Source: Thermoleophilia bacterium SCSIO 60948 (lineage in GTDB: Bacteria > Actinomycetota > Thermoleophilia > Solirubrobacterales > 70-9). From it: DNA of 64,000 nucleotides. The stretch spans positions 3,216,001-3,280,000 of the forward strand of contig CP053031.1 of NCBI GenBank assembly GCA_021496505.1. Reading direction: 5' to 3'. Every line of letters starts with the position of its first letter. Position 1 is the first letter of the stretch. Shown piece after piece: positions 37,707-52,218 of the stretch. The notes beneath the pieces are model-generated. The model ran no database searches. It had not been told where the DNA came from and was given only the letters and a program-made list of their open reading frames with translations. A program made the position numbers and the translations under genes.

Positions 37707-38300
37707 GTGAAAGTCGAGCGCGAAGTGCAGGACCGCCTGCACGCCGACGTCTGCGCCGGCGACCCGACCGCCTCGTCGCGGGTGTTCACGGTGCTGCTCG
37801 AGCCTCTGATCGACTGGCTCAGCTTCCGCTGGCGCAACGAGCGCGATGCCGAGCGGGTTCGCGACTTCGCGATCGACTCGATCATCGGCTACCTGGAGAG
37901 CCCCGAGCGCTACGACCCGGCCCGCGCTTCGCTTCTGACCTACCTACGCCTCGACGCGCACGGAGATCTTCTCAACGATCACGATCGCCGACAGCGCCAG
38001 CGCGAGCGACTTCAGGAGGCGGATGTCGAACTCGAGGACGAGATTCGGAACAGCTCCACAGATGAGTATCCATCCGACCGAGAGGAGCCCGAGTTGAGGC
38101 TGGTCGACGTTCGCGAAGCGCTGCCCGATGAGCGTGATCGCCGCGCCGTCTTCCTGATGATGGAGGGGGAGCGCTCCACCGAGGCGTTCGCTGAGGTCTG
38201 GGAGCTGACCGACCTGCCTGGGCAGGAACAGGCTGTCGACGTCAAGCGAAATAAGGACCGAGTCAAGGCGCGCCTGCGCCGCTTGAGGAGCGCGAAGTGA
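37707..38300 (+). CDS. Sigma-70-family (ECF-like) RNA polymerase sigma factor
   Basis: A 197-residue protein. Residues about 25-100 look like sigma region 2: helix FAIDSIIGYLESPERYDPAR, then SLLTYLRLDAHGDLLNDHDRRQRQR. The C-terminal part (about 140-197) is a region-4-like HTH. An acidic linker joins them. The start is GTG at 37707; a five-codon ATG frame (MEYP-stop) ends over it as GTGA, which may couple initiation. Its stop overlaps the ImmA/IrrE gene by 4 bases (GTGA), so the peptidase is its likely partner rather than a classic anti-sigma. Confidence 0.7.
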   Translation: MKVEREVQDRLHADVCAGDPTASSRVFTVLLEPLIDWLSFRWRNERDAERVRDFAIDSIIGYLESPERYDPARASLLTYLRLDAHGDLLNDHDRRQRQRERLQEADVELEDEIRNSSTDEYPSDREEPELRLVDVREALPDERDRRAVFLMMEGERSTEAFAEVWELTDLPGQEQAVDVKRNKDRVKARLRRLRSAK

Positions 38301-39388
38301 CTACCGCGCTGCGACATGCTGCCGATCGCGTCGCGTACGAGCCTGCGTTCCTCGCCAACGACCTACGGATCTTCGCCGAGCTCAATGACACCACCCGCGA
38401 TGCTCTCGAGGCTCGGCTCGCCCTCACAGACACGAAGTTCGATGAGCTGGCGCTCTGTCGCACGCCGCACCGAGACGGGCGCTTTCGCGACGACCTGCTC
38501 GCGATCGCGTCGCTGGTCGATGCCGACCCGATCGCGCTGGCAAACATGGTCAGGCTCGTAGACGCGTCGACTGCGCTGGCGAGCGCGCCGGCGACCAAGG
38601 TTGCGCCGATGCTCGCGGCGGCGAGGGAAATCGCACAGCAGCCCGTGCGTACCGAGCCGCCGAACGAAGGCCTGCAGGCCACCTGGCTGACGGAGGCGGT
38701 GGAGCTTCTGTGGGGGGATGCGGCCGCCGAGGACTTCCCGCGTGACGTTGAGCTCGCGCTTCTATGGCGGATGCCGCTCGCGATCATCGAACTGGAGCAG
38801 CTAAGCGGCGTCAACGTCGGCGCGTGGCTGTCGGCGCGCGGGGTCCACCTTCCGGTCCACGTGCCACCGGGGTCCCTGCACGGCGCATTGGTCGCGTTTG
38901 CCGGCAGCGGCGTGCTCTTCTTGGACGCGGCCGATGACCCAGCGCAGCGCCGGCTCACCGCTGCTCACGAAGGTGCCCACTTTGTCGTCGACTACTGGTT
39001 GCCGCGCCTGAAGCTCGCGCAACGCGCGCCGCAGCTGCTCGAGGTTGTCGACGGGTTGCGCGAACCGGATCCAGAAGACCACGTCGATGCACTCTTGGCG
39101 CGGATCCCCTTTGGGGTGCACACCCACCTCTTCGAGCGCGACGAGGCCGGCGGTACCCGCAACATCGCCGTCGATCACGCCGAGGATCGCGCCACCCAGG
39201 TGGCGTGGGAGCTGCTCGCTCCACGCGAGGTGGTCGCCGCGCGCACGGCGCGCGCCGATGAGTTCACCGTCGTGCGCACGCTCGAAGCCGAGTTCGGGCT
39301 TCCGCGCACGGCAGCCCGCGAGTACGCCGGGTACCTACGCGCGAGCGGAGATCAGCGGCGGGGAAGGCGGCGATTCGATTGGAGCTGA
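38297..39388 (+). CDS. ImmA/IrrE-family metallopeptidase
   Basis: A 363-residue protein with the zinc-peptidase motif HEGAH at residues 224-228 (context RRLTAAHEGAHFVVDYW). The ImmA/IrrE pattern precedes it: GVNVGAWLSARGVHLPVHVPP and SGVLFLDAADDP. The N-terminal 150 residues are helical and unrecognised. ImmA and IrrE cleave repressors (ImmR, DdrO) to start stress or excision responses. Here it is translationally coupled to a sigma factor, so its target may control this element's cargo. The GTG at 38297 overlaps the sigma stop. Confidence 0.8.
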   Translation: MTTALRHAADRVAYEPAFLANDLRIFAELNDTTRDALEARLALTDTKFDELALCRTPHRDGRFRDDLLAIASLVDADPIALANMVRLVDASTALASAPATKVAPMLAAAREIAQQPVRTEPPNEGLQATWLTEAVELLWGDAAAEDFPRDVELALLWRMPLAIIELEQLSGVNVGAWLSARGVHLPVHVPPGSLHGALVAFAGSGVLFLDAADDPAQRRLTAAHEGAHFVVDYWLPRLKLAQRAPQLLEVVDGLREPDPEDHVDALLARIPFGVHTHLFERDEAGGTRNIAVDHAEDRATQVAWELLAPREVVAARTARADEFTVVRTLEAEFGLPRTAAREYAGYLRASGDQRRGRRRFDWS

Positions 39389-39425
39389 TGTCGAACTTCT
39401 TCGTCCGCTCGGAAGAGAGGGGTGA

Positions 39426-40655
39426 ATGCTGAAGATGAGCGACGCTCCACAGCCCACCCCCGCGCCCGAGCCGGATCGCGACGCCGTTGACCTGGACGAG
39501 TTCTCCTCCGCCTTCGGTGCCGATTTGCTCGAAACGCTCGACGTGGGCACCTGGAAGCAGGGCCCCGACCTCGAGGCACTCAATCGTCGGCTGGCGAACG
39601 AGGTCGCAGAAGCCGTCGCCCAGGAGCGCGACGCCGTCGCCTTCATTCGCCGGGAGGTGTTCCCGCGGCTGCAGAACCAGGTCGATGCACCGGCCGAGGC
39701 CGGGGTCTACCAGGCACGTCCAGAGGACATCGACCGCGCCCTGCGAAACGCCCTCTTCAACGGCTGCGTCGAGGCCTGTGACGGCACGGTCGCCGAGCAC
39801 GACACGCTGGTGCTCACAGTGACGCAACTCGGCGTCTGTCTCGTCTCCTACCAGGGTGAGCAGCTCACGCTCAGCCAGCGCCTGTTTCGCCGCGATCTGC
39901 GCATCGACCAGCGCCGCGACCCACAGGCGCGGGTGCGCGAGTTGTTGGAGCGGCGAATGGGACGCTCGGCCATCGGCGTCCAGGACCCCCACGACACCCT
40001 CTCCGAGCTCGCCCGCCGCGGGATCATGGGGTACGCCGAGCGCGCGGTCCTGCTCGAGCAGTCGACCGCGCCGTGGCGCTTCGGTCACGGCTCGGTCGCC
40101 CCGTACGAGCTGCTCACCGGCGGCGGTCTCGTGAGCGAGGGCAAGATGCCGCTGCTCGATGCGAGCGGGGAGATGCTCCGCGGGCTAGTGCTCGACCACG
40201 AGCAGTTCATCTTCGTGCCCTCGACGATCTCAGATCGCTGGCTGATCACCGTGGGCGACGCGCTGCGCCCGCTTGAGTACGCAGTTGTCGAGTCGGCGGA
40301 ACGGCGGATGTCGGCCGTGGTCGAGGGCGGCCACTACGCCGGCGAGTACACCGAGCGTGCCCGAAAGCTCGTCGCCGATGTCGGACCGAAGATCGTCGTC
40401 GGCGTCTTTCGCGCAGCGCAGGGCGCGCCCGCACAGGTGTTCTACGCCCACCCCGATCACGTCCACGAGGCCGCGGTCATCGCGATGGCCGACTCCGTGC
40501 TGCAAGAGCACCGCGGCTTTCCGATGCTGATTGACATCGCCCATCACGTGGTCAACGCCACGATGGGCCACGACGGCTTTAAGGAGACGGTGCGCTCGGC
40601 CTACGTCGACGCCGGCGCCCCCTTCCGCTTCGCCCCGGAACGCGACACCCGATAG
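39426..40655 (+). CDS. NurA-like nuclease, HerA partner
   Basis: A 409-residue protein directly before a HerA ATPase (7-base gap). The end resembles NurA 5'-3' nucleases: YAHPDHVHEAAVIAMADSVL, GFPMLIDIAHHVVNATMG and a final Arg-rich segment. The first 150 residues are mostly acidic and helical. The full set of NurA catalytic acids is not clear, so the identification rests on the C-terminal pattern and the HerA neighbour. A second ATG lies at 39435. A GAGAGGGG Shine-Dalgarno precedes 39426. It would resect DNA with HerA. Confidence 0.6.
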   Translation: MLKMSDAPQPTPAPEPDRDAVDLDEFSSAFGADLLETLDVGTWKQGPDLEALNRRLANEVAEAVAQERDAVAFIRREVFPRLQNQVDAPAEAGVYQARPEDIDRALRNALFNGCVEACDGTVAEHDTLVLTVTQLGVCLVSYQGEQLTLSQRLFRRDLRIDQRRDPQARVRELLERRMGRSAIGVQDPHDTLSELARRGIMGYAERAVLLEQSTAPWRFGHGSVAPYELLTGGGLVSEGKMPLLDASGEMLRGLVLDHEQFIFVPSTISDRWLITVGDALRPLEYAVVESAERRMSAVVEGGHYAGEYTERARKLVADVGPKIVVGVFRAAQGAPAQVFYAHPDHVHEAAVIAMADSVLQEHRGFPMLIDIAHHVVNATMGHDGFKETVRSAYVDAGAPFRFAPERDTR

Positions 40656-40662
40656 GAGAATC

Positions 40663-42534
40663 ATGAGCGAGAACGACAACGATGCACAGCCGGACCAGCG
40701 CCCCGACCTCGGCCCCGTCGGGCCCGGACCAGCAGTCGCCCCAATCCCGGCCGCCGCGCTCGACGGGATTGACGCCGGGGAGGAATGGCAGCCCGACCCG
40801 CGCGACGCCGACGCGATCGGGCGGACGATGTTCGACACGCCGGGCAGCCAGGACAACACGCTCACGGTGCTGCTGCCGAAGGACTCGCTCACCCTGGTGC
40901 CGGCGCAGTCGCTGCTGCGGATCGAGAGCCGCTCAGACGAGCGGACCTACCTCGCGATTGTCACCGCCGGCCCTTTCGCCGAGCCCGACGGCCTGCGAGC
41001 GGACGCACCGACGATCGTCACAACAGCCGTCCGGGGCGCCACCGCGTTCGTGCCGCGGTACCACGGCCGCGTCCAGATCGAGATCCTCGGTGAGCGCCGC
41101 GGCAAGGCGCTGTCACCTCCGCGCTTCCGCCCGCTTCCCAACAGCCCGGTCTTCCTGCTCGACAGCGACGAGTCCCGCGAGGTACTCGAGCTTGGCGGCA
41201 GCATCCGCCTGGGAGTCGTCGCGGGCGACGACGAGCTGGTCGTCAACGTGCCCGCCGACAAGAAGGCGGTCCTGCCACGGCACACCGGCATCCTGGGCAC
41301 CACCGGCGGCGGAAAGTCGACCACGGTCTCGCGTCTGATCGACCAGGCCCAGCGCCAGGGATTCGCCGTGATTCTGCTCGACACCGAGGGGGAGTACACG
41401 CTGATGAACGAGCCGACCGAGGACCAGACGATGCTCGAGCTGCTCGAAGAGCGCGAGGAACAGCCCCACGGCATCGACGGCACGGAGCTCTACGTGCTCG
41501 CCGACAAGCGGACATCGAACCCGGGCCACCCGAACAAGAAGGAGTTCGACCTCTCCTTCGAGCGCTTCTCTCCCTTCATCGTCGAAGAGCTGCTCGATCT
41601 CACCAGCGCCCAGGCCGAACGCTTTACCGAGGCCTACGAAACCGCCAAGGCGCTGCTGCGCGAGCTGAACATCTTCCCGCGCCGCGACAGCGACGAGGAG
41701 AAGCGGATGGCGATCGAGCTCAACGAGATGGAGACGGGCTATCCGCGCATGCGCCTCGACCATGTGATCGACGTTGCGCGGATGATCCACGACTCCCTCT
41801 ACGGAAGCGACCTCGACGAGAGCGTGATGATGACGAGCGACTTTCGCTCGGGCGAGGGCCGCAGCAGGCTCAAGCAGAAGGCCGAGCTGGCCGCCGGCAA
41901 GCTCGGCAACAAGATCTCCTGGCGCGCCCTGCTGGGCCACCTTCACCGGCTCCGCCGCCTGCGGGTGTTCGACAGCACGGGCGGCCTGGATTACGACGCC
42001 CTGCTGCGGCCCGGTGGAGTCAGCATCTTTGACCTCTCTGACTCGGACTCCCCGCAGGTCAACAACCTCGTGATCGCCGACGTCCTGCGTGGGGTACAAG
42101 ACCGCCAGGACGCCGCGTATCGGAGCTTCGAGGACGGCGGCGATCAGCCGACGCGAGTGCTGATCGTGATCGAGGAGGCCCATGAGTTCCTCTCCGACGA
42201 GCGCGTCACGAAGATGCCGTTCCTGTTCCAGCAGGTCGCCCGGATCGCCAAGCGTGGTCGCAAGCGCTGGCTCGGGCTCGTCTTCGTCACCCAGCTGCCC
42301 CGCCACCTGCCACCGCAGGTGCTCGGGCTGGTCAACAACTGGGTGCTGCACCGGATCTCGGACGCCGACACGATCTCGCGGCTGCGGCGATCGGTGGCGG
42401 GCGTCGATGATGCCCTTTGGCAGCGGCTCCCGGGCCTTGCGCCCGGCCAGGCGATCGTCTCCTTCACATCGATGACGCGTCCGCTGCTCGCGGCCGTCGA
42501 CCCGACGCCGGCCAAGCTGCGAATGCTCGACTGA
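40663..42534 (+). CDS. HerA-like DNA-translocating ATPase
   Basis: A 623-residue HerA/FtsK-superfamily ATPase. The N-terminal beta-barrel (about residues 65-200, HAS-barrel-like) precedes Walker A GTTGGGKST (212-220). Walker B is RVLIVIEEAHEFL, followed by VARIAKRGRKRWLGLVFVTQLPRHL and the arginine-containing end block. Bacterial HerA forms hexameric pumps and pairs with nucleases in antiphage systems (HerA-SIR2, HerA-DUF4297) as well as with NurA. The ATG at 40663 has AGGAGA upstream. The longer frame lies within the nuclease gene. Confidence 0.9.
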   Translation: MSENDNDAQPDQRPDLGPVGPGPAVAPIPAAALDGIDAGEEWQPDPRDADAIGRTMFDTPGSQDNTLTVLLPKDSLTLVPAQSLLRIESRSDERTYLAIVTAGPFAEPDGLRADAPTIVTTAVRGATAFVPRYHGRVQIEILGERRGKALSPPRFRPLPNSPVFLLDSDESREVLELGGSIRLGVVAGDDELVVNVPADKKAVLPRHTGILGTTGGGKSTTVSRLIDQAQRQGFAVILLDTEGEYTLMNEPTEDQTMLELLEEREEQPHGIDGTELYVLADKRTSNPGHPNKKEFDLSFERFSPFIVEELLDLTSAQAERFTEAYETAKALLRELNIFPRRDSDEEKRMAIELNEMETGYPRMRLDHVIDVARMIHDSLYGSDLDESVMMTSDFRSGEGRSRLKQKAELAAGKLGNKISWRALLGHLHRLRRLRVFDSTGGLDYDALLRPGGVSIFDLSDSDSPQVNNLVIADVLRGVQDRQDAAYRSFEDGGDQPTRVLIVIEEAHEFLSDERVTKMPFLFQQVARIAKRGRKRWLGLVFVTQLPRHLPPQVLGLVNNWVLHRISDADTISRLRRSVAGVDDALWQRLPGLAPGQAIVSFTSMTRPLLAAVDPTPAKLRMLD

Positions 42535-42656
42535 CCTGACTCGCCCAGCCGGCCGGCCCGGCGAAGAGCTGATGAGCTGATCGGCGCCGCGCCCGATCCG
42601 TAGGCTGGTCGGCGGCACGGCTCGGAGCGGGCGCATTGAGCCATACTCGCTCGTCG

Positions 42657-43859
42657 ATGGCCGGCGCCCGAACCAGCTCAGACTCTCCGAAGCCTCCCCA
42701 GACACCGCTTCCGGTGCATCCGTTTCCGGCGCGGATGGCGCCCGAGCTCGCGCTCGAGCGACTACCGAAGGAGCCGGCCCGCGTGCTCGACCAGATGATG
42801 GGCTCGGGGACGATCCCCGTGCTCGCCGGAGCCGCCGGCCACTCGGCGACCGGCTATGACCTCGACCCGCTCGCGCTCCTGATCGCCGAGGTCTGGGGTC
42901 GACCGCTCGAGGAGGAGGCGTACCTGCTCGCCGCCGGGGACGTCGCTCAGGAAGCGCGCGAAGCCGAGCCCGCGGAGGTGGCGGTCGAGGACGCCGAGAC
43001 ACTCGAGTTCATCGAGCGCTGGTTCGACGAGGTCGCGCGCGGGCGGCTCGCTGCGCTCACCGAGGCGATAGCGGGGCAGCAAGATGTTCTTCAGCCGGCG
43101 CTGTGGTGCGCGTTCTCAAGGCTCATCATCACCAAGGACCGCGGCGCCTCCCTCGCACGAGATGTCTCTCACAGCCGCCCCCACAAGGTCCGGGAGCGCA
43201 CCGACTTCGACCCGATCGCCAACTACCTGCGATCCGCGCGCGAGGTCGCGAGGCGACACGCGACCCTGAGCGAGACGCGACCGGATCCCGAGGACTTGGC
43301 CTTCGGGCGCGTCGACGCCCGCGAGCTTCCCCTCGAGGACGACTCGATCGACATGGCGATGACCTCGCCGCCCTACCTATCGGCGATCGATTACCTGCGC
43401 GGGCACCGAATGAGTCTCGTCTGGATGGGCTACACGCTGAGCGAGCTGCGCGATCTGCGCGGCAGCGTCGTCGGCGCGGAGCGTGCCCGCCACGACGGCG
43501 ACGACCACGAGGAGCTGATCGCCGAGACGCTCGGCAAGGACGCCCCAGCGCGCACCCGCGGCGTACTGCGCCGCTACCTCTATGACCTCCACGCGATCAT
43601 GAAGGAGACCACCCGCGTCCTTCGGGCGGGCGGATCGGCCACGTTCGTGATCGCCGACGCGACCCTGTTCGGGATCCCCGTCGCCCTCGGCGACGTCGTC
43701 GACAAGCTCGCGCGCAAGGTCGGGCTCGAGCGCACCGAGCGGATCGAGCGCGAGCTGCCCGCCGACCGGCGCTACCTACCGCCGCCCGGGCGCGGTCGGA
43801 CCAGTGACCTCACGCGCCGAATGCGCCACGAGGTCTGCCTCGGCTACCTCGCCCCGTAG
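42657..43859 (+). CDS. DNA methyltransferase, TSPPY type
   Basis: A 400-residue methyltransferase. The SAM site comes first (LDQMMGSGTIPVLAG), after HPFPARMAPELA; the catalytic TSPPY follows at about residue 235 (MAMTSPPYLSAIDYLRGHRM). TSPPY and this order suggest N4-cytosine methylation, but N6-adenine is possible. The ending RTSDLTRRMRHEVCLGY is typical of the family. The ATG at 42657 is chosen; a TTG at 42636 is possible. Placed after HerA, it could protect host DNA from the NurA-HerA module or the HNH enzyme. Confidence 0.85.
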   Translation: MAGARTSSDSPKPPQTPLPVHPFPARMAPELALERLPKEPARVLDQMMGSGTIPVLAGAAGHSATGYDLDPLALLIAEVWGRPLEEEAYLLAAGDVAQEAREAEPAEVAVEDAETLEFIERWFDEVARGRLAALTEAIAGQQDVLQPALWCAFSRLIITKDRGASLARDVSHSRPHKVRERTDFDPIANYLRSAREVARRHATLSETRPDPEDLAFGRVDARELPLEDDSIDMAMTSPPYLSAIDYLRGHRMSLVWMGYTLSELRDLRGSVVGAERARHDGDDHEELIAETLGKDAPARTRGVLRRYLYDLHAIMKETTRVLRAGGSATFVIADATLFGIPVALGDVVDKLARKVGLERTERIERELPADRRYLPPPGRGRTSDLTRRMRHEVCLGYLAP

Positions 43860-43916
43860 CTCGGCGTCGCACTTCGCTTGCCCGCTCGGAAGGGAGTTGA
43901 CGAAGGCGATCATGCG

Positions 43917-43927
43917 AAGGAGGTGAT
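43917..43927 (+). promoter_or_regulatory. Perfect Shine-Dalgarno AAGGAGGTGAT
   Basis: These 11 bases are the full complement of the 16S rRNA 3' end, the strongest ribosome site in the window. They lie 5 bases before the ATG at 43933, which decides the frame of the small basic protein. Confidence 0.7.
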
Positions 43928-43932
43928 GGCAG

Positions 43933-44070
43933 ATGGCGAGGAACCGCAAGACCTCGGCGAGGGCGGCGAAGGCGGCGTCGAAGGTGCTGCGCGACAAGCG
44001 AACGAGCAGGGCGTCGAAGAAGGCCGCAGGCAGCGCGCTCTCGCAGCGAGCGCCGAAGCGCGGCAGTTAG
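43933..44070 (+). CDS. Small, very basic 45-residue protein
   Basis: It begins MARNRKTSARAAKAASKVLR and ends in GSALSQRAPKRGS. It is rich in Lys, Arg, Ala and Ser, with no acidic run, like a histone-H1-type tail. A family of short proteins with the pattern 'KTS..AA.KASKVLRD..T...SK.AAGSALSQ' occurs in many bacteria, often near mobile elements; function unknown. A DNA- or RNA-binding role is likely from composition. The perfect Shine-Dalgarno predicts strong expression. A longer overlapping ORF in another frame (43,878-44,087) has no such support. Confidence 0.7.
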   Translation: MARNRKTSARAAKAASKVLRDKRTSRASKKAAGSALSQRAPKRGS

Positions 44071-44077
44071 CGGGACC

Positions 44078-44175
44078 GCGAGTCTGAGGTCTTCTAACGT
44101 AAGCGTTAGAAACCCTTAGACTCGCTTTCCCCTGCCTCCACGGCGTGCAGCGACGCCAAGTCTGAGACTTTCTAA
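44078..44175. repeat. Three copies of a 17-base motif upstream of the ATPase operon
   Basis: Copy A AGTCTGAGGTCTTCTAA is at 44081-44097, copy C AGTCTGAGACTTTCTAA at 44159-44175 (same strand, 15 of 17 identical), and copy B is inverted at 44106-44122. A and B form a long imperfect inverted repeat (44078-44125, arms GCGAGTCT/AGACTCGC and TTCTAACG/CGTTAGAA). The region is AT-rich relative to its surroundings. This fits a regulator or replication-initiator binding site controlling the operon at 44214, or a terminator for the basic-protein gene combined with it. Confidence 0.6.
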
Positions 44176-44213
44176 GACACCAACACCCCTCCACAGAAAC
44201 AGCTAGAAGCCGA

Positions 44214-45398
44214 GTGAACAAGCGCGAGAACCCCTACACCCCCGGTGCCGGCAGAAAGCCGCCGACGCTCGCCGGCCGCGACGGCGACCTCGAGAACTTC
44301 CAGGCGCTGATCGAGCGGCTCGGCACCGGCGGCTACGAGCGCAGCCTCGTCTACTCAGGGCTGCGCGGGGTCGGCAAGACGGTGCTGTTGATGGAATTCG
44401 ACGTGCTCGCGAGTGAGGCGGGCTGGGCGACCACCGACGTCCAGGAGGTCGGCTCGCAGCCCGACTTCCGCGTCACCTTCGCTCGCATGGCAGCCCGGCT
44501 GCTGCGCGAGATGAGCCGCAAGCACCGGATCAAGGATCGCGTCGACCGCGCCCTCGGGGTGGTCAAGGCGTTCAGCCTCGCGGTGCCGGGCGGCGTGCAG
44601 ATCAAGCTCGACGTCGAGGCCGCCTCCGGGGTCGCCGACTCCGGCGACCCCGAGCAGGACCTCGCCGACCTGCTGACCGAGATCGGCGAGGTCGCCCAGA
44701 GCACCAACACCGGCGCGCTCTTCCTGGTCGACGAGATGCACAACCTCGACACGCCCTCGCTGGCGGCAATCTGCATCGCGCTGCAGGCGATCAGCCGCCG
44801 CACCCTACCGGTGGCGCTCGTCGGCGCCGGGCTCCCCGACCTCCAGGTCCGTCTGATCTCCGCCAAGCCTTACGCCGACCGGCTCTTTCAGTACCACGAG
44901 CTGGGCGGCCTCCCGGACCCGGCGGCGCGCTCGGCGTTGATCGGACCGGCGACGACCCTGGGCGTGACCTATGACGAGGCCACCGCCCGCAAGGTCGTCG
45001 CCGAGGCCGCCGGCTACCCCTACTTCATCCAGGAGTACGGCCTCGAGCTCTGGAACCACGCCGACGACTCTCCGATCGACGACGACGACCTCGAGACCGT
45101 GCGCGAGCTGGTGCGTGACACGCTCGCCCGCAGCTTCTTCGGCACCCGCTTTCAGATGGCCACCGACGCCGAGCAGCGCTACCTCGCCGCGATGGCCGCG
45201 GCCGGCGAGCCGCCCTACCGCGTCGGCGACGTCGCGTCGGCCTACGGCGCCCGCGACCAACGCGGCGTCTCAGTGCATCGCGACGGTCTGATCCAGAAGG
45301 GGCTGGTGTGGAGCCCGCGCCGCGGCCAGGTCGATTTCACGGTGCCGCTCTTCGCCGAATACCTGCGCGACAACCACCCGCTCGAGAGCTTTGAGTAG
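44214..45398 (+). CDS. AAA ATPase with winged-helix tail (Orc1/Cdc6-like)
   Basis: A 394-residue STAND/AAA-type ATPase. Walker A is GLRGVGKTVLL (about residues 49-59) and Walker B is GALFLVDEMHNL (about 165-176). The C-terminal 110 residues look like a winged helix (AAGEPPYRVGDVASAYG, VSVHRDGLIQKGLVW). It starts NPYTPGAGRKPPTLAGRDGDLENF, a common opening in actinobacterial ATPases. The GTG at 44214 is the start. It heads the second cargo operon, downstream of the three-copy motif. Confidence 0.8.
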   Translation: MNKRENPYTPGAGRKPPTLAGRDGDLENFQALIERLGTGGYERSLVYSGLRGVGKTVLLMEFDVLASEAGWATTDVQEVGSQPDFRVTFARMAARLLREMSRKHRIKDRVDRALGVVKAFSLAVPGGVQIKLDVEAASGVADSGDPEQDLADLLTEIGEVAQSTNTGALFLVDEMHNLDTPSLAAICIALQAISRRTLPVALVGAGLPDLQVRLISAKPYADRLFQYHELGGLPDPAARSALIGPATTLGVTYDEATARKVVAEAAGYPYFIQEYGLELWNHADDSPIDDDDLETVRELVRDTLARSFFGTRFQMATDAEQRYLAAMAAAGEPPYRVGDVASAYGARDQRGVSVHRDGLIQKGLVWSPRRGQVDFTVPLFAEYLRDNHPLESFE

Positions 45399-45407
45399 GT
45401 CGCGGCG

Positions 45408-46823
45408 ATGAGCACGTCTCGCTACGACGCGATCCGCGACCGGCTCCCGACCCCCATCGGCAAGCAAGCCGACGTCGTTGCGCTCGCTCCCAGCGGACAC
45501 CACGTCGTCCTCGGAACCGCCGGCTCCGGGAAGACGACGATGGCGATGCTGCGGGCGATGTTCCTCGCCGACCCGCGCGCCGAGCACCACGGCCGCACGC
45601 TACTCGTCACCTACAACCGAGCGCTCCTGGCCTTCTTGCGCCAGGTCATTACCGGCGACGACGACCTGCTCGAGGTCCGCAACTACCACCACTTCGCCCT
45701 CGGGTATCTAAAGTCGCGCGGCCTGCCGACCGACCGCGCCGTCGCCCAGGGTGGCGAGCGGCGAAACCTGATCGCCACCGCGTTGGGTGCCACGCGCGAG
45801 GGGCGCTCGGACGCGGTGCTCGATCGCGGCACGAGCTTCTTCTCGAGCGAGTTCGCCTGGATGGGGCGCAACGGGATCGTGAGCGAGGACGACTACCTCG
45901 CCGCCGATCGCGTGGGCCGCATCCACCCGCTGACGCGTGACCAGCGCGCGGCCGTCTACGCGGCGCGGCTGGGCTACGAGCGGGCACGCGAGGAGGCCGG
46001 TCTGAGCTACGACTGGGATGACCTGGCGACGGCGGTCGTCGACCAGTTCGAGGCCGACGACGAGCCCCGTCGCTACCGCCACATCGTGATCGACGAGGGC
46101 CAAGACTTCTCGGTGCAGATGCTGCGCAGCCTGGTCAGCGCGATGGATCCCGAGGGCTCCTTCACCCTGTTCGGCGACGCGGCGCAGCAGATCTACGGTC
46201 GCGGGGTCTCGTGGCGAAGCGCGGGGATCGGGGTCAGCAAGGTCTGGGAGTTCGCCCACAACTACCGCAACTCGGCGCCGATCGTGCGGCTCGCGCAGGC
46301 GATCGCGGCGATGCCCTACTACCGCGACGTCGAGGACCTGGTCGAGCCCGACGAGGACGTCGACGAGGGGCCACCGCCGACGATGCGAGTGTTCGAGAAC
46401 CCGAGCGACGAACGCGACTGGGTGATCGAGCAGGCACAGGCTCTCGGACGCACGGGTACGGTCGGCGTGCTCTTTCGCCGCGGCGTCGATGCCGGGCGCT
46501 TCGTTCGAGCCTGCCGAGGCGCCGAGCAGCTCAATCGCGACACCCCACTGTGGAACGCTCAGCCGGGGATCTGGAGCGCGACCGTGAACGCCGCCAAGGG
46601 CTTCGAGTTCCAGAGCGTGATCCTCCCCGAGCTCAGCACCGACTGGTGGCCCGAGCCCCAGGCTGTCAGCGCCGACGGCGAGGAGGAGGCGACGGTCGCG
46701 GATGGCCGGCTGCTGTACGTGGCCGTGACGCGCGCGCGTCAGAACCTGCTGATGACGGCGACTGGAACGATCACCGAGCTACTTCCAAATGAGGAGGGGC
46801 TATGGGTGCAGAGCAAGGGATAA
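45408..46823 (+). CDS. UvrD-like superfamily 1 helicase
   Basis: A 471-residue SF1 helicase. Walker A is LGTAGSGKTTMAM (about residues 35-47), Walker B IVIDEGQDFSVQML, motif IV-like NYRNSAPIVRLAQ, motif V SATVNAAKGFEFQSVILPEL and motif VI LLYVAVTRARQNLLM. It lacks the long insert domains of full UvrD/Rep, like the compact helicases of defence loci. It ends overlapping the DarT-like gene by 22 bases. Confidence 0.88.
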   Translation: MSTSRYDAIRDRLPTPIGKQADVVALAPSGHHVVLGTAGSGKTTMAMLRAMFLADPRAEHHGRTLLVTYNRALLAFLRQVITGDDDLLEVRNYHHFALGYLKSRGLPTDRAVAQGGERRNLIATALGATREGRSDAVLDRGTSFFSSEFAWMGRNGIVSEDDYLAADRVGRIHPLTRDQRAAVYAARLGYERAREEAGLSYDWDDLATAVVDQFEADDEPRRYRHIVIDEGQDFSVQMLRSLVSAMDPEGSFTLFGDAAQQIYGRGVSWRSAGIGVSKVWEFAHNYRNSAPIVRLAQAIAAMPYYRDVEDLVEPDEDVDEGPPPTMRVFENPSDERDWVIEQAQALGRTGTVGVLFRRGVDAGRFVRACRGAEQLNRDTPLWNAQPGIWSATVNAAKGFEFQSVILPELSTDWWPEPQAVSADGEEEATVADGRLLYVAVTRARQNLLMTATGTITELLPNEEGLWVQSKG

Positions 46824-47533
46824 CCGAGATCGAACACCTCGCCCGCGAGCGCGAGATCACGCGGCTCTGTCATCTGACGCCGTTTCAGAACCTGATCCAC
46901 ATCGCCCGCGGCGATGGGCTTCGCTCGACGTTCGAGCTTTCCGGCGACGCGCGCGCCGCGTTCACCCAGCAGGACCTCGAGCGCCTCGACGGTCATCCCG
47001 ACCACATCAGCTGCTCGATCGAGTACCCCAACGTCTGGTATCTGCGCCAGCGCCGCAGGCGCGCGACCCCGCTGCAGAAGCTGTTCCCCGATTGGGTCTG
47101 CGTCTTGATCGAGCCGCACCATCTCTGGCGAGAGGACACGCTGGTCTGCTTTCGCAACGCCGCCGCCGCCGGCGGTGCCTACATCGACCGCGGACCGACG
47201 GCGTTCGAGGCGATGTTCGCCGACTCCGTCGTTGGCAGCGGCGGGCGCACCTACACGCGCGGGTCGAAGCCGCTCAGCTGTCCGACCGACGACCAGGCCG
47301 AGGTCCTGATCGCCAAGCAGATCCCGCTTGCCGACGCCGGTCGCGTCGTCGTCGCCGACACCGCACAAGCCTCGCGAGTCCTAGTAGGACTCGACATCTT
47401 GCAAGTCCCGCCCGACACCTTCGAGCTCATCGTCGCCCCCAAGCTCTTTCAGATCAGCCTGAGCGGCGCCCTCAACGCCGGTCGGCGGCCGACCGAGACC
47501 CCCTGGACCCACGGAGAAGACGATGCCGCCTGA
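46802..47533 (+). CDS. DarT-like (DUF4433) ADP-ribosyltransferase
   Basis: A 243-residue protein with the DarT pattern: LCHLTPFQNLIHIARGDGL near residue 22 (NAD-contacting His/Leu/Thr block) and CPTDDQAEVLIAKQIPL at 160-176 with the probable catalytic Glu167. DarT transfers ADP-ribose from NAD onto thymidine (DarT2-type) or guanosine in single-stranded DNA and is toxic unless reversed. A GAGGAGGGG Shine-Dalgarno lies inside the helicase gene. It overlaps the glycohydrolase gene by 11 bases. Target base and toxicity are inferred from the family. Confidence 0.72.
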   Translation: MGAEQGITEIEHLAREREITRLCHLTPFQNLIHIARGDGLRSTFELSGDARAAFTQQDLERLDGHPDHISCSIEYPNVWYLRQRRRRATPLQKLFPDWVCVLIEPHHLWREDTLVCFRNAAAAGGAYIDRGPTAFEAMFADSVVGSGGRTYTRGSKPLSCPTDDQAEVLIAKQIPLADAGRVVVADTAQASRVLVGLDILQVPPDTFELIVAPKLFQISLSGALNAGRRPTETPWTHGEDDAA

Positions 47534-49286
47534 GCGCGACCGGATCACCGGCGGCCTTCTGGGCGTCGCGGTCGGCGACGCGCTCGGCTGGCCGATGGAG
47601 GACCGAGGCAACCGCGTTGGCGGTACCGCGAACGTAAAGCCCGACTGGGCCCTGGTCCCTTGGAGGCGCCGGGAGGGCGGCGGCTACGGGCCTCACGAGC
47701 AGCCCGTCGACGCCGGCTCGGTGTCCGACGACACGCAGCTCACTCTCGCCGTCGCCCGCAGCGTCCTTCATCGTGACGACTGGCTGGCCTACTGGACCCG
47801 GGTGGAGCTTCCCCTCTGGACGGTCTACGAGCGTGGCGGAGGCGGGGCGACCAAGCGTGCGGCGCAGACCTGGCTTCGTGGCCACCCACCCTGGCACGAC
47901 GCCGAGAAGCCGAAGGCGGTCAGCAGCTACTTCGAAGCGGGGGGAAATGGCACGGCGATGCGCTGCCTCGGCCACTGCGCCGTCGCCGCAGATTGGGACG
48001 AGCTAGCCCTCCGGCTCGACGAGGATGGAGCGACCACACACGGCCACCCCCGAGCGCTACTCGGCGCTCGCGTCTATGGATGGGCCGCATTGCACGGCCT
48101 TCACCGTGGCTCGAAGCTGCGCTACGGCGAGCTGATCGAGCGTGTGCTCGACGCGGAGCCAGAATGGAGCAGGCCGCCACGACTCTCTGACGATTGGCAT
48201 CTTGCCGCCGAGCGCGCCGCTCGGGACTACGAGGGGGAGTGGCGGAGAACCGTTGACGAGCTGCGCCGCGCTCTTGAAATCTCGCGGGCCGGGATCGGCG
48301 AAGGGGCGGTGGCCGTCGATCATCCGGTGCTCGAGGACCTGGGCGCCTTTGGCCAAGCCTCGGGGGCCGGCACCGTCACCGCGGTGGCCTCGATCTTCCT
48401 TGCCGCGCGCTACCTGAGTCAGCCCCAGCAGGGGTTGCTGGCCGCGGCCTTCGCGCGCGGTGCCGACACTGACACGTTGGCGGCGATGACCGGGGGGCTG
48501 CTTGGACTCCTCCTGGGAGGCGACTGGCTGCGACCGCTCGCCGGCCAGGTCCAGGACTCCCAATACATCCAGGAGCTCGCTCGTCAACTGGAACTCCGTC
48601 GAGCTGGGGATCGAATCGATTGGGCCTTCACGACCCAGGAGCGCACGCGCCTTTACCGCTGGCTCGACGAGGCCCGACCGGGCGCCGAGGGCGACCTGCC
48701 GCCGTTCGGGCGCATCCTTCTGGCTGACGTCGTCGACTTGCCGGCCCGGACGCAGTTCGTTCGGAGCTGGGCGCTGCAAACCGATCTCGGTCAATCACTC
48801 CTGATCAAGCGCTACGACAAGGGTCGAGACGGCCAGCCGCGCTGGATATCGATCTCGCGGCCTGCCGCAAGCAACGGAGTTGAGGAAGCGACCGGGGCGG
48901 TGCAGGAGCCGAGTCCGCGGGTCGAGCCGCGAGTTGGCCTGGTGTTGCGCGTCAGCGACATCGACCGGGCGAAGGCCTTTTACACCGAGGTAGTTGGTCT
49001 GTCGGTGCGCCGCGCTACCGACCGATTCATCAGCTTCGGATGGCTTGCGCTCGAGCCCGACGAGCGCGCCGGGCAGCTCTCATTGAAATCAGGCGATGAG
49101 GCGCTGATGCCGGCAATCCGGCTCTACGTCGCCGCGGACGAAGTCATTCAGATTCGCGGACACTTCGACGAGTTCGGGCTTCAGACGACCGAACTACAGA
49201 GATCGACTCATCGCGGCTTTCGCTCACATGATCCAGACGGCCACCCGATCGAGGTCGTCGCGCGCAACGGCGCTCCGACGCCGTAG
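47523..49286 (+). CDS. ADP-ribosylglycohydrolase (DraG/ARH) with C-terminal VOC domain
   Basis: A 587-residue fusion. Residues 1-350 are an ADP-ribosylglycohydrolase: GGLLGVAVGDALG at 10-22, metal-binding SDDTQLT at 68-74, GGNGTAMRC, THGHP and ARGADTDTLAAMTGG at about 300. About 350-465 is unassigned. Residues about 465-580 are a VOC unit (VGLVLRVSDIDRAKAFYTEVVGL ... SHDPDGHPIEVVARN). DraG-type enzymes remove ADP-ribose, so it is the probable antitoxin of the overlapping DarT-like gene. The role of the VOC domain is unknown. Confidence 0.8.
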   Translation: MPPERDRITGGLLGVAVGDALGWPMEDRGNRVGGTANVKPDWALVPWRRREGGGYGPHEQPVDAGSVSDDTQLTLAVARSVLHRDDWLAYWTRVELPLWTVYERGGGGATKRAAQTWLRGHPPWHDAEKPKAVSSYFEAGGNGTAMRCLGHCAVAADWDELALRLDEDGATTHGHPRALLGARVYGWAALHGLHRGSKLRYGELIERVLDAEPEWSRPPRLSDDWHLAAERAARDYEGEWRRTVDELRRALEISRAGIGEGAVAVDHPVLEDLGAFGQASGAGTVTAVASIFLAARYLSQPQQGLLAAAFARGADTDTLAAMTGGLLGLLLGGDWLRPLAGQVQDSQYIQELARQLELRRAGDRIDWAFTTQERTRLYRWLDEARPGAEGDLPPFGRILLADVVDLPARTQFVRSWALQTDLGQSLLIKRYDKGRDGQPRWISISRPAASNGVEEATGAVQEPSPRVEPRVGLVLRVSDIDRAKAFYTEVVGLSVRRATDRFISFGWLALEPDERAGQLSLKSGDEALMPAIRLYVAADEVIQIRGHFDEFGLQTTELQRSTHRGFRSHDPDGHPIEVVARNGAPTP

Positions 49287-49315
49287 TCGAAGCGAGCCGG
49301 CCTAGCCCGTTCGAG

Positions 49316-50260
49316 ATGAGCGCCGATTTCGCACCCGATCCGCTTCCCAAGGCCACGCGCGAGGACGGCCTCGGCGATCAGGGGATGAGGATGGTCGATC
49401 GGGTCGTTTCCGAGGACCTCGGCTGGATCTTTCGCGATCAGACTCGAAAGGACTTCGGGATCGATGCGCTGATCGAGTTGGCGCACCGCGACCGCCGCGT
49501 TACGGGCCGCTTGATCGCCGCGCAGATCAAGTGCGGGAAGTCGTGGTTTTCCGAGCCGATGGCGGACGGCACCGGCTGGGTCTACCGAGGCGAGGTGAAA
49601 CACCTGAACTACTGGCTGGGGCACTCGCTGCCGGTGATTCTCATCCTCTGCGATCAGGACGACGACCGCTGCTACTACGCCCACGTCGCTGCGGCACGGG
49701 TTCGCCAGACCTCGAGCGGATGGTCGATTGTGGTCCCTCGAGCACAGATCCTCGACGCGAGTGCTCAGGAGCACCTCAAGCGATTGACGAGAGCGCCGCA
49801 GCGAAAGGACGTGATCGAGTTCGCGCTGCTTCAGCATCTGGTCGACCGCTGGGGCGATCGGCTGCGGATCTGCCCGATCCTCGAAGCGCCACGCGACTTC
49901 CAACGCTTTGCCCATCTCATCGAGATCAGAGGGGAAACCGGCGGGACCTTCGGGGTGCATTTCATCGACGCGTCGGTACGACTGCCGACCGCTGAGGCGA
50001 TCGAGGAGGAGCTTGAGTGGCGGGACTACAACGAGCGCGCGACCGGCGGCGGGGTCAAAGACCTGATGCTCTTCGTCGTGGGCGACGATCCAGAGAGCAT
50101 TCGGTTGTCAGCCGATGCCGAGGAGCTGGTTGACCGATCCCCAAATCTTCGTCTCCATCGACTGCTTTACGACGACGAGCGGATTGTCAGCCTCACGGAG
50201 ATCGACTCCGGCGATCGACCACTCGAGTTCTGGCCGGGAGCCGACGAGCCGGGCCTCTAG
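49316..50260 (+). CDS. DUF4365-like PD-(D/E)XK protein
   Basis: A 314-residue protein. The first 190 residues resemble DUF4365: DLGWIFRDQTRKDFGIDALIEL then GRLIAAQIKCGKSWF, giving a D50...QxK72 set like a PD-(D/E)XK nuclease, with VILILCDQDDDRCYYAHV next. The last 120 residues are unrecognised. Such domains occur in restriction and defence genes. The stop overlaps the convergent integrase gene by 4 bases; it ends the cargo. Confidence 0.72.
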   Translation: MSADFAPDPLPKATREDGLGDQGMRMVDRVVSEDLGWIFRDQTRKDFGIDALIELAHRDRRVTGRLIAAQIKCGKSWFSEPMADGTGWVYRGEVKHLNYWLGHSLPVILILCDQDDDRCYYAHVAAARVRQTSSGWSIVVPRAQILDASAQEHLKRLTRAPQRKDVIEFALLQHLVDRWGDRLRICPILEAPRDFQRFAHLIEIRGETGGTFGVHFIDASVRLPTAEAIEEELEWRDYNERATGGGVKDLMLFVVGDDPESIRLSADAEELVDRSPNLRLHRLLYDDERIVSLTEIDSGDRPLEFWPGADEPGL

Positions 50261-51768
50261 CGGTGAATCGTCTGCATCTGCTCAGCCGGCATGTGAGGAC
50301 CCGAGTCGTCGCCGGGCGCTTCTCCGCGAAGTAGACGGTCGAGGTTCTCACCGTGGTGGCGAGGGATCCGCTGCTCGAGCTGGGCGTAGACGTCGAGGGT
50401 CATCTTCGAGTCGGCGTGGCCAACCTGGCTCATGACCCACTTGACGTCGAAGTCGTTGGCGACCAGTGCGAGCGAGATGTAGGTACGTCGCAGGCTGTGC
50501 GGGGTGATGTGCGGCAAGGCCGGTAGGTCGCGCTCGGCGCGGCGGGTGCTGGCGAGCTTGGCTGCCTCGCCGACGATCTCGCCGACGCGCTGGCGGTCCA
50601 TCCGCCCACCGCGTCGGTTGGGGACGAGATACGCATTCGGGTCGGTTGGCTTGCCTGCGCGGCGGAGGCGGTCGAGGTGCTCGACGGCGGCCTCGACGAG
50701 GTCGGGCGTCATCTGGACCTCGCGTACGCCGGCGTCGGTCTTGGCGTCACGGATGTGGAACCGCGCGCCGGCGGGATCGTGCAAGCGAACGTCGCGGATC
50801 CGCAGGTCGCAGAGCTCGCTCGCGCGGACGCCGCTTCTGGCGAGGATCTCAACGACGGCGCGGCGGCCGATGTAGCCGATCGGCGCCGCGGCGCCGAGAC
50901 GGTTGAGGTGAAAGCTCACCGTCTGCTTGGTGATGCCGAGCTCACGGGCGATGTCCTGTGGGCGCCGGCCCGCGGCCGCGCGGCGGGCGACTCGCGCCTG
51001 AGTGCCGTCGCCAGCGAGCGCTTCAGCGGCGAACCGGGGCAGGGTCTCCTGGGCTGCGGCCGCGTCGAGCAGTTCGGCTAGTTCGTCGAGTTCGAGGAAG
51101 CTGCGCTTGGGCTTAGGGACGCGGACGCGCATCCGTTTGCCGCGGGCGGGATTCCGGTCGATCAGCTCATCCTCCACTGCCTCGTCGAGGACCATCGCGA
51201 GCACCCCGATCAGCTTCTTCAGATAGCTAGCGCCGATCGGGACGCAGCGGCGACCGCGCCGGTCGCGGATCTCGGCTCCGGCGGCGATCGCCTCGCGCAG
51301 CTCCGTCGCCTCGCGGATTACGTGTGCCTTGAACGCGAGGCAGAGGTGGCGGTCGATCTCATCGAGGCGGTGGCGGGCGAAGTAGGGGAGCACATGGTTA
51401 GTTAGCGCGCCGCGATAGTGCTGGTAGGTGCTGGGGGTGATCGTGCGGTCGCCGATCGTGCCGTTGCGCTTCCGCTCGAGCCAGCTCGAGGCGTACTCGT
51501 GGAAGCTCGGCATTCCGTTCGGTGGCGCTGGAGCGCTCCGCGGCAGCGGCGTTCGCCAGACGCCGGCCCGCACCTTGGCGATGATCGTGTCGAGCTCGGC
51601 GCGGGCGGTGCGCTTGCTCCAGCCCCCACCGCAGCCGCAGGAGCAGTCACGGCGCTCATGCAGGATCACGTCGCGGCGCTCGCCGTTGGCCTGGAAGCGC
51701 AGCCGGTACTTCTCGGTACCGTCGGCGAGCGTGGTGGTCTGGATGTTGCCGCGGGCGGGGCGGGCCAT
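50257..51768 (-). CDS. Tyrosine recombinase (integrase) with inserted HTH
   Basis: A 503-residue site-specific recombinase. Catalytic residues are R315 (SGVRASELCDLR), K343, H424 and R427 (HSLRRTY), H451 and the nucleophile Y461 (DVYAQLEQ). A Cys cluster (CSCGCG, about residues 42-47) in the N-terminus could bind zinc. Between the core-binding domain and the catalytic Arg is an extra 70-residue block with a clear helix-turn-helix (RPQDIARELGITKQTVSFHLNRLG, 269-292). It should integrate the element into the tRNA-Phe 3' end. The start is the ATG at 51768. Confidence 0.93.
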   Translation of the reverse strand: MARPARGNIQTTTLADGTEKYRLRFQANGERRDVILHERRDCSCGCGGGWSKRTARAELDTIIAKVRAGVWRTPLPRSAPAPPNGMPSFHEYASSWLERKRNGTIGDRTITPSTYQHYRGALTNHVLPYFARHRLDEIDRHLCLAFKAHVIREATELREAIAAGAEIRDRRGRRCVPIGASYLKKLIGVLAMVLDEAVEDELIDRNPARGKRMRVRVPKPKRSFLELDELAELLDAAAAQETLPRFAAEALAGDGTQARVARRAAAGRRPQDIARELGITKQTVSFHLNRLGAAAPIGYIGRRAVVEILARSGVRASELCDLRIRDVRLHDPAGARFHIRDAKTDAGVREVQMTPDLVEAAVEHLDRLRRAGKPTDPNAYLVPNRRGGRMDRQRVGEIVGEAAKLASTRRAERDLPALPHITPHSLRRTYISLALVANDFDVKWVMSQVGHADSKMTLDVYAQLEQRIPRHHGENLDRLLRGEAPGDDSGPHMPAEQMQTIHR

Positions 51769-51882: not shown

Positions 51883-52218
51883 TTAGCTCTGCTCATAGGG
51901 CAGCAGCTCCACCGCGTCAGCGGTCACCGAGCGGGTCCCGCCGCGCGCGGCTCGACGGTCGGGCTCGTGTGACTCGGGGGCGTTGACGGTCAGACGGCGA
52001 CGGACCTCGACCAGATCGAAGCGAAGCCGGCCCTGCCGGCCGCCGAGGCGAATCGCGCCCAGTTCGCGAGCGTGTGCGTAGACCCAGTCGCGCTCGACGG
52101 AGAGTCTGCGCGCGAGCTCTGCCGCATCGACGAGGCGAATGCCGTGGGATTCCGTGTCGGCGAGGAGTTCGACGACGCGCCGAGCGATCGGCTCGATGTC
52201 CTCCGCATCAAGCGTCAT
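51883..52218 (-). CDS. Excisionase-like helix-turn-helix protein
   Basis: A 111-residue protein with an HTH_17/MerR-like fold: RLVDAAELARRLSVERDWVYAHARELG (about 28-54) and GRLRFDLVEVRRRL. Such proteins next to an integrase usually act as excisionases or regulate int. The first 25 residues are acidic; the last 30 are Arg-rich. The ATG at 52218 lies within the end of the methyltransferase gene (11-base overlap). Confidence 0.75.
   Translation of the reverse strand: MTLDAEDIEPIARRVVELLADTESHGIRLVDAAELARRLSVERDWVYAHARELGAIRLGGRQGRLRFDLVEVRRRLTVNAPESHEPDRRAARGGTRSVTADAVELLPYEQS

Follow-up and report, generated by a model that had tools for sequence, protein, structure and literature searches.

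Which protein reads the repeated motif in front of the ATPase gene at 44,214, and what does its binding achieve? The window, i.e. the whole 64,000-nucleotide stretch of Thermoleophilia bacterium SCSIO 60948 DNA analysed here, carries three copies of AGTCTRAGNNNTTCTAA between this gene and a gene for a small basic protein, every one of them fitting AGTCTNAGNNNTTCTAA. The answer developed below, which we hold to be quite probable, is that the site serves as an autoregulatory operator to which the ATPase itself binds; it would lie over the ATPase gene's own promoter, and its occupation would probably repress the gene. The argument refers to the following features, given in window coordinates:

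43878-44087 (plus strand) and 43910-44221 (minus strand): mechanical open reading frames across the site
43933-44070, plus strand: gene for a small basic protein of 45 aa, which stops 1 nt upstream of palindrome 1
44072-44131: palindrome 1 (distal), an extended inverted repeat with 28-nt arms and a 4-nt loop, holding half-sites 1 and 2
44081-44097 (plus), 44106-44122 (minus) and 44159-44175 (plus): the 17-bp motif copies
44083-44097, plus strand: half-site 1, TCTGAGGTCTTCTAA, with the word TCT.A twice, 10 bp apart
44106-44120, minus strand: half-site 2, TCTAAGGGTTTCTAA on that strand
44161-44175, plus strand: half-site 3, TCTGAGACTTTCTAA
44193-44207, minus strand: half-site 4, a degenerate copy with mismatches at 4 of 12 specified positions, assigned mainly by position
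44161-44207: palindrome 2 (proximal), half-sites 3 and 4 with a 17-bp gap, adjoining the start codon
44204-44209, plus strand: TAGAAG, putative -10-equivalent position by alignment with homologues; weak, 4 nt before the GTG
44214-45398, plus strand: AAA+ ATPase of 394 aa, beginning with GTG and ending in a winged helix; the putative binder
45408-50260, plus strand: tightly packed genes for UvrD-like, DarT-like, ADP-ribosylglycohydrolase plus glyoxalase, and DUF4365 proteins

Architecture of the site

The initial annotation had described a 17-base motif in three copies, the third inverted, and the three matches listed above bear this out; the two direct copies, said there to differ at 2 of 17 bases, in fact differ at 3 of 17, and the count of three copies stands but overlooked the inverted, degenerate fourth at 44193-44207. 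The extended hairpin with perfect 8-base outer and inner arms is likewise present: between the arms 44072-44099 and 44104-44131, 23 of 28 positions pair, including uninterrupted 8-bp blocks of TTCTAACG (inner) and GCGAGTCT (outer), an 8-bp gap separating TCTAA from TTAGA, and half-sites 1 and 2 spanning 44083-44120. In 152-bp controls this pairing was matched by none of 200 shuffles keeping single-base composition (maximum 19) and by none of 200 random window segments (maximum 21). No plausible gene covers the site, in agreement with the initial annotation; the basic-protein gene ends at 44070 and the ATPase gene starts at 44214.

Both half-site pairs fall within the final 131 bp upstream of the ATPase start codon, half-site 3 at -53 and half-site 4 at -21. 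The 32 bp between these two recur as the arm distance in 11 close homologues (L004, L005, L009, L010, L011, L013, L014, L015, L019, L024 and L025), the distance in L016 being 31 bp, and in 12 close homologues the arms lie at -58 to -51 and -26 to -19. Given that half-site 4 stands at this homologue-like spacing, we take the unit to consist of two palindromes (44083-44120 and 44161-44207). In the 3.42-Mb genome the motif occurs at up to one mismatch as these three copies only, and the reversed control pattern does not occur; the 15-bp core at up to two mismatches gave 18 further matches in the same genome versus 27 for its reversed control.

Conservation of the repeats with the ATPase gene

A scan with the ATPase retrieved 47 homologue loci, of which 41 with a settable start entered the motif count, those with truncated or partial genes (L020, L023, L026, L046, L049 and L050) being left out. 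The core motif used, TCTRAGNNNTTCTAA, corresponds to the window copies minus their two outer bases and was trimmed after the upstream DNA of the homologues had been inspected. Across the 41 loci it was matched exactly 6 times within 150 bp upstream of the gene and never in 533 kb elsewhere, 17 times versus once at up to one mismatch, and 36 times versus 7 at up to two. The 22 testable close homologues (58-81% identity) carry it exactly in 6 cases, in 14 at up to one mismatch, in 20 at up to two and in all 22 at up to three, this last figure being weak by itself given the 184 matches elsewhere at three mismatches. The initial annotation had named absence of the motif upstream of homologues as the observation that would speak against its reading, and on inspection the motif is present there.

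In the 16 genomes with close homologues the core is matched exactly 6 times, each time in an ATPase operator. With one mismatch allowed, the same search gave 51 matches versus 31 for the reversed control, the genomes of L005 and L018 (2 of the 16) having none at this level. In one of these genomes, G356, five matches at up to one mismatch lie outside the operator and the reversed control has none, so that further targets are possible. TTTATC-N7-GATAAA, the palindrome found in more distant homologues, was searched in 6 genomes and matched exactly twice, both times at ATPase operators; one of the two lies on the complete Svornostia abyssi chromosome (5.06 Mb). Taken together, 8 of 8 exact matches in 22 further genomes lie at the ATPase gene.

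In distant homologues the words differ (TTTATC/GATAAA, CTTATA/TATAAG, CGATAG and GAGACAAGG) and the layout, consisting of inverted arms each with its word repeated 10 bp apart, is often kept. The most regular array seen lies upstream of the ATPase gene of L111, where two arms flank a centre and each repeats CTTATA at a 10-bp spacing. The lag and dyad tests covered 83 of 87 loci (79 plus 8 Proteobacterial) after removal of near-identical or short ones. When the 75 bp upstream of these 83 loci are averaged, self-identity is in excess at lag 10 (z 7.7) and more weakly at lag 20 (z 2.4), none of the remaining lags exceeding z 1. The six leading lags of three control segments are without exception multiples of three, the pattern of coding DNA, and do not include lag 10. 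Locus by locus, lag 10 reaches p<=0.05 in 34 of 83 loci versus 0 of 81 in the control segment from -260 to -176, and the dyad does so in 32 of 83 versus 3 of 81, control lags of 7, 9, 11 and 13 being significant in 6, 8, 3 and 3 of the 83 loci. Neither test is passed at p<=0.05 by 37 of the 83 loci and, therefore, the layout is not established for every family member.

A combined score was computed for 79 of 90 loci, the remainder (L014, L022, L043, L045, L047, L048, L053, L055, L061, L094 and L105) being left out for want of a start codon by the rule used. It lay above all 40 shuffles in 33 of the 79 loci and above all but at most two in 46; the proximal palindrome of the window is weak by this score, which 3 of 40 shuffles reach. 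In a Proteobacterial set collected afterwards, at most 2 of 100 shuffles reached the score in 5 of 9 loci, and the remaining four behaved like shuffles (21, 63, 27 and 21 of 100 reaching it), one of these weak loci, L107, being a repeat of L032. Dinucleotides were kept in the shuffles of both these analyses, and single bases in those of the automatic dyad search and the per-locus tests. The automatic dyad search alone chose unrelated GC-rich repeats in several loci, and some assigned starts are a few codons off (e.g. L085, L087 and L088). Overall, a dyad or repeat upstream of the ATPase gene is kept with the gene in close homologues and, family-wide, in about half of the loci. As a separate observation, operator gaps across loci tend towards 5-8, 14-17 and 24-27 bp, sizes separated by about one turn, with small counts and other values also occurring; the steps in gap size look as if inner repeats had been lost.

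Neighbourhood and spread of the ATPase gene

The site had initially been read as the operator of an operon starting at 44,214, a proposal upheld by the motif upstream of the close homologues but not as regards the operon, the conserved element being a single gene whose neighbours are not kept. Of nine window neighbours tested, not one was found again in the 47 loci, whose flanks extend up to 8 kb and are in many cases cut by contig ends, so that a conserved operon was rejected. All-against-all clustering of the neighbours in the same loci did not reveal, open reading frames overlapping the ATPase apart, any family common to more than 5 loci: the clusters comprise the ATPase (38 loci), a 6-member set overlapping it on the other strand, two 5-locus sets scattered in position and orientation, and eight pairs. 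Nine short DNA segments, each longer than 120 bp and located away from the gene, are common to pairs of loci, at differing distances. The downstream UvrD gene was found at E<=1e-50 in 1 of 296 Actinobacterial genomes, its own, and a homologue of the basic-protein gene in none of the examined loci outside its own genome, the Pfam scan of the 45-aa product being also without a match. With no neighbour genes kept, the ATPase gene is the only one to which the site belongs. In this particular locus the UvrD-like gene begins 9 bp after the ATPase gene, and the genes from UvrD-like to DUF4365 could share the ATPase promoter; given that they follow at this distance, the self-operator may have been recruited to control them.

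The borders of similarity between loci tell where the unit ends. In closer pairs the DNA alignment begins within or just beyond the operator, mostly at -46 to -82 (at -99 for L007/L021, both of which have two palindromes), and ends near the stop codon, in some cases up to about 190 bp past it; in more diverged pairs it begins at the right arm or the start codon. The flanks of L011, L013 and L014 differ, yet these loci are 91-94% identical. From these borders and differing flanks, the travelling unit looks like operator plus gene. Homology on the 3' side past the stop codon is seen for L009/L019 and L011/L013, up to about 190 bp in some pairs. Insertion linked to tRNA genes was considered and rejected as a general rule, a tRNA lying just upstream in 2 of 40 loci only (L005 and L033). 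The near-neighbour open reading frames scanned (76 of 148) belong to diverse families, many of them housekeeping and a few with defence matches, as judged from the best 25 of 91 Pfam and the best 25 of 29 PADLOC families; neither enrichment nor depletion of defence genes is claimed from this.

Homologues of the ATPase are found at E<=1e-40 in 37 of 296 sampled Actinobacterial genomes, its own included, at E<=1e-60 in 9 of 299 Proteobacterial genomes, including the Stenotrophomonas genome used as centre, on 116 of 72,556 plasmid records and on 1 of 50,697 phage records. In seven annotated plasmid records the homologue is labelled AAA family ATPase or ATP-binding protein. Two paralogues share a contig in L016 (767-3424, head-to-head) and in L038 (3232-9209, same strand), and on a Cellulosimicrobium plasmid (L075, 5221-6855) the ATPase homologue is immediately followed by a gene annotated as a TnpB-family RNA-guided endonuclease.

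Within the window, the gene for a DarT-like thymidine ADP-ribosyltransferase (PF14487) overlaps that for a PF03747 ADP-ribosylglycohydrolase/glyoxalase-like fusion (46802-49286). The usual partner of DarT is the macrodomain protein DarG, which is absent from this pairing and has the ADP-ribosylglycohydrolase in its place. Upstream, 37707-43859 encodes a sigma-like protein, an M78 peptidase, an unmatched 409-aa protein, a HerA-like ATPase and a DNA methyltransferase; it resembles a defence cluster, with matches to the PADLOC HerA, mad8 and mad2 models of which none is decisive. A tyrosine integrase gene on the minus strand (50260-51768) has an HTH-like segment (residues ~257-292) just before the catalytic domain.

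Binder of the site, mechanism and known systems

The initial annotation called the first product Orc1/Cdc6-like, and the predicted structure agrees in being of ORC/STAND-type AAA+ with a winged helix. The ATPase matches Pfam PF13191 (AAA_16, E 5.4e-13), and the Walker A and B residues of its AAA+ core (G52, G54, K55, D173 and E174) are invariant in 35 sequences. Its model (mean pLDDT 92.0) combines the AAA+ core with a C-terminal winged helix predicted to comprise helices 318-329, 337-344 and 349-361 and a strand at 372-375, block means of pLDDT being at least 90 over residues 311-394. The nearest solved folds over nearly the full length are the archaeal ATPases 2qen (Z 23.0) and 2fna (Z 21.6), together with ORC2 (1w5t, Z 20.8), and the top Foldseek match is Cdc6/Orc1 on origin DNA (E 5.3e-10); phmmer against PDB sequences gave no match at E<=0.1. 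By its predicted fold and the Pfam AAA_16 match, the protein is placed in the ORC/Cdc6-STAND clade of AAA+ ATPases. No specific function for the family emerges from Pfam, NCBIfam, PHROGs or PADLOC, and no BREX model of PADLOC matches the ATPase at E<=0.001.

The likely binder of the site is this ATPase and not the HTH protein encoded at 51,883. Paralogues with differing words coexist in one genome in the cases of L038 (a and b), of L052 and L060, and of L056 compared with L061 and L064, the latter two having similar TATAAA-type words in their common genome; the second L016 paralogue has no significant dyad. A partial Mantel test on 50 loci (score >=18) related operator similarity to the ATPase domain (r 0.23, p 0.001) and to the recognition-helix region (r 0.12, p 0.025), with arms that were chosen automatically and are in some loci (L007, L008 and L031) not those an eye would choose; thus, co-descent of site and protein is supported and the recognition helix is not singled out.

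As for the promoter, 14 long-gap operators, that of the window among them, were aligned, and in every one the outermost word has TA at one common position. TANNNT occurs in 11 of the 14, ending 6-9 nt upstream of the start codon, in an alignment that was set with a pattern containing these letters and so favours them; the window is among the other three. Promoter prediction found no promoter-like site in the window. The alignment suggests that TANNNT could be a -10 element, that the start could be leaderless and that the operator could extend across the promoter.

The half-sites form two inverted pairs, and each of them holds a short word twice, 10 bp apart. It can be proposed that ATPase protomers bind these words through their C-terminal winged helices, one protomer to each successive turn and all on one face of the DNA, so as to form two mirror-image stacks on the two arms. 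Since the proximal palindrome overlaps the presumed promoter, occupancy should block RNA polymerase and thereby repress the ATPase gene, probably under the control of the ATP/ADP state. We infer repression in preference to activation. That the ATPase binds the site as an activator, or as a dual regulator switched by ATP, and not as a simple repressor, is the alternative that fares best and nonetheless an unlikely one: the distal palindrome (44083-44120) stays clear of the start region, but in the homologues the proposed -10 position falls inside the proximal palindrome. An operator over the -10 position is the geometry usual for repression.

Palindrome 1 could also, or instead, be a transcription terminator of the basic-protein gene, which we regard as rather improbable. 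It starts right after the stop codon of this gene, its RNA folds strongly (-40.6 kcal/mol, z -7.3) and the outer 11 bp of each arm reach past the operator consensus. However, the GC-rich stem is not followed by a T-run and a scan of the plus strand finds no terminator; moreover, the close homologues have the motif, the basic-protein gene occurs in no examined locus outside its own genome, and no folding is seen for the segment that holds copies 3 and 4 (z +0.5).

Recognition of the site by a host transcription or sigma factor has in its favour that the outermost word resembles a -10 element and that the paralogues L061 and L064 of one genome have similar words. Against this, the words vary between lineages and between the other same-genome paralogues, which makes a common host factor unlikely, and exact matches occur nowhere else in the searched genomes; we thus give this alternative very little credit. 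The least credible reading, a replication site as the initial annotation had allowed, i.e. an iteron- or ORB-like origin with the ATPase as initiator, could appeal to the ORC/Cdc6-like predicted fold, to short phased repeats adjoining an initiator-like gene, to the 116 plasmid records with homologues and to the GC content of the final 60 bp before the gene (mean 0.46 versus 0.63 at -130 to -71, 79 loci), but it is opposed by homologues that are solo genes among diverse, in many cases housekeeping, genes with no kept linked gene (the search for linked replication genes found no neighbour family common to more than 5 of 47 loci, ATPase-overlapping open reading frames apart), by a window segment only mildly AT-rich (GC 0.52-0.66 over 44050-44199) and by palindromes at the start codon, where a promoter would explain the AT-richness too. 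Infection sensing, the other role that the initial annotation had allowed, likewise gained no support.

The motif observation is more general than the reading of a single sequence could show, and an isolated motif becomes a rule that can be tested across a family. It is tempting to speculate, and we do so tentatively, that the ATPase represents a family of solo bacterial ORC/Cdc6-like proteins, widespread and apparently undescribed, whose main or only DNA target is their own promoter, read through words one helical turn apart, and that promoter and gene form a unit of about 1.25 kb found in unrelated places without fixed partners: a self-contained module that might act as a selfish switch or as a sensor made of one gene. 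Protein and site would change in step, so that cross-talk between paralogues of the same cell would not be inevitable. The open-licence PMC literature yielded no earlier description of the ATPase family or its operator. Bacterial relatives of ORC ATPases would then seem to be dedicated self-regulators with a DNA code of one word per turn, and their varied operator words a natural data set on how an ORC-type winged helix reads DNA. This provides a handle on an ATPase family without specific assignment, in Actinobacteria and on plasmids; in the present element the putative switch precedes genes that include a DarT-like toxin.

Autoregulated wHTH proteins commonly have a dyad operator, a palindrome over their own promoter, and the present site differs from these in that each arm holds words spaced by one turn (10 bp) and that lineages vary in the words they use. 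By fold, the best matches over most of the length are archaeal AAA+ ATPases of the SSO1545/PAB2304 type (2fna and 2qen, Z 21.6 and 23.0), with only 12-13% sequence identity to the window ATPase. BrxC and BrxD of BREX, which a published account (PMC12839542) places in the same broad ORC/Cdc6-type AAA+ clade and in defence loci, differ in being encoded inside multi-gene systems. Mycobacterial IniR is likewise a signal-transduction ATPase with an SSO1545-like domain that binds a promoter; as described (PMC5760070), it has 818 aa, carries MalT-like and LuxR-like DNA-binding domains and regulates another operon, whereas the window ATPase has 394 aa and no extra domain. A further parallel is Saccharolobus Orc1-2, presented (PMC9738581) as a non-initiator Orc1 and DNA-damage regulator, also an activator, combining an ORC-type AAA+ module with a winged helix and acting as a transcription factor on a short motif of its own promoter. 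Orc1-2 is archaeal and has an initiator-specific motif, and its ANTTTC motif is also present on other promoters (PMC9738581); the site of the window ATPase, in contrast, is a phased palindrome whose exact matches in the searched genomes, weaker sites being possible, lie only at its own gene.
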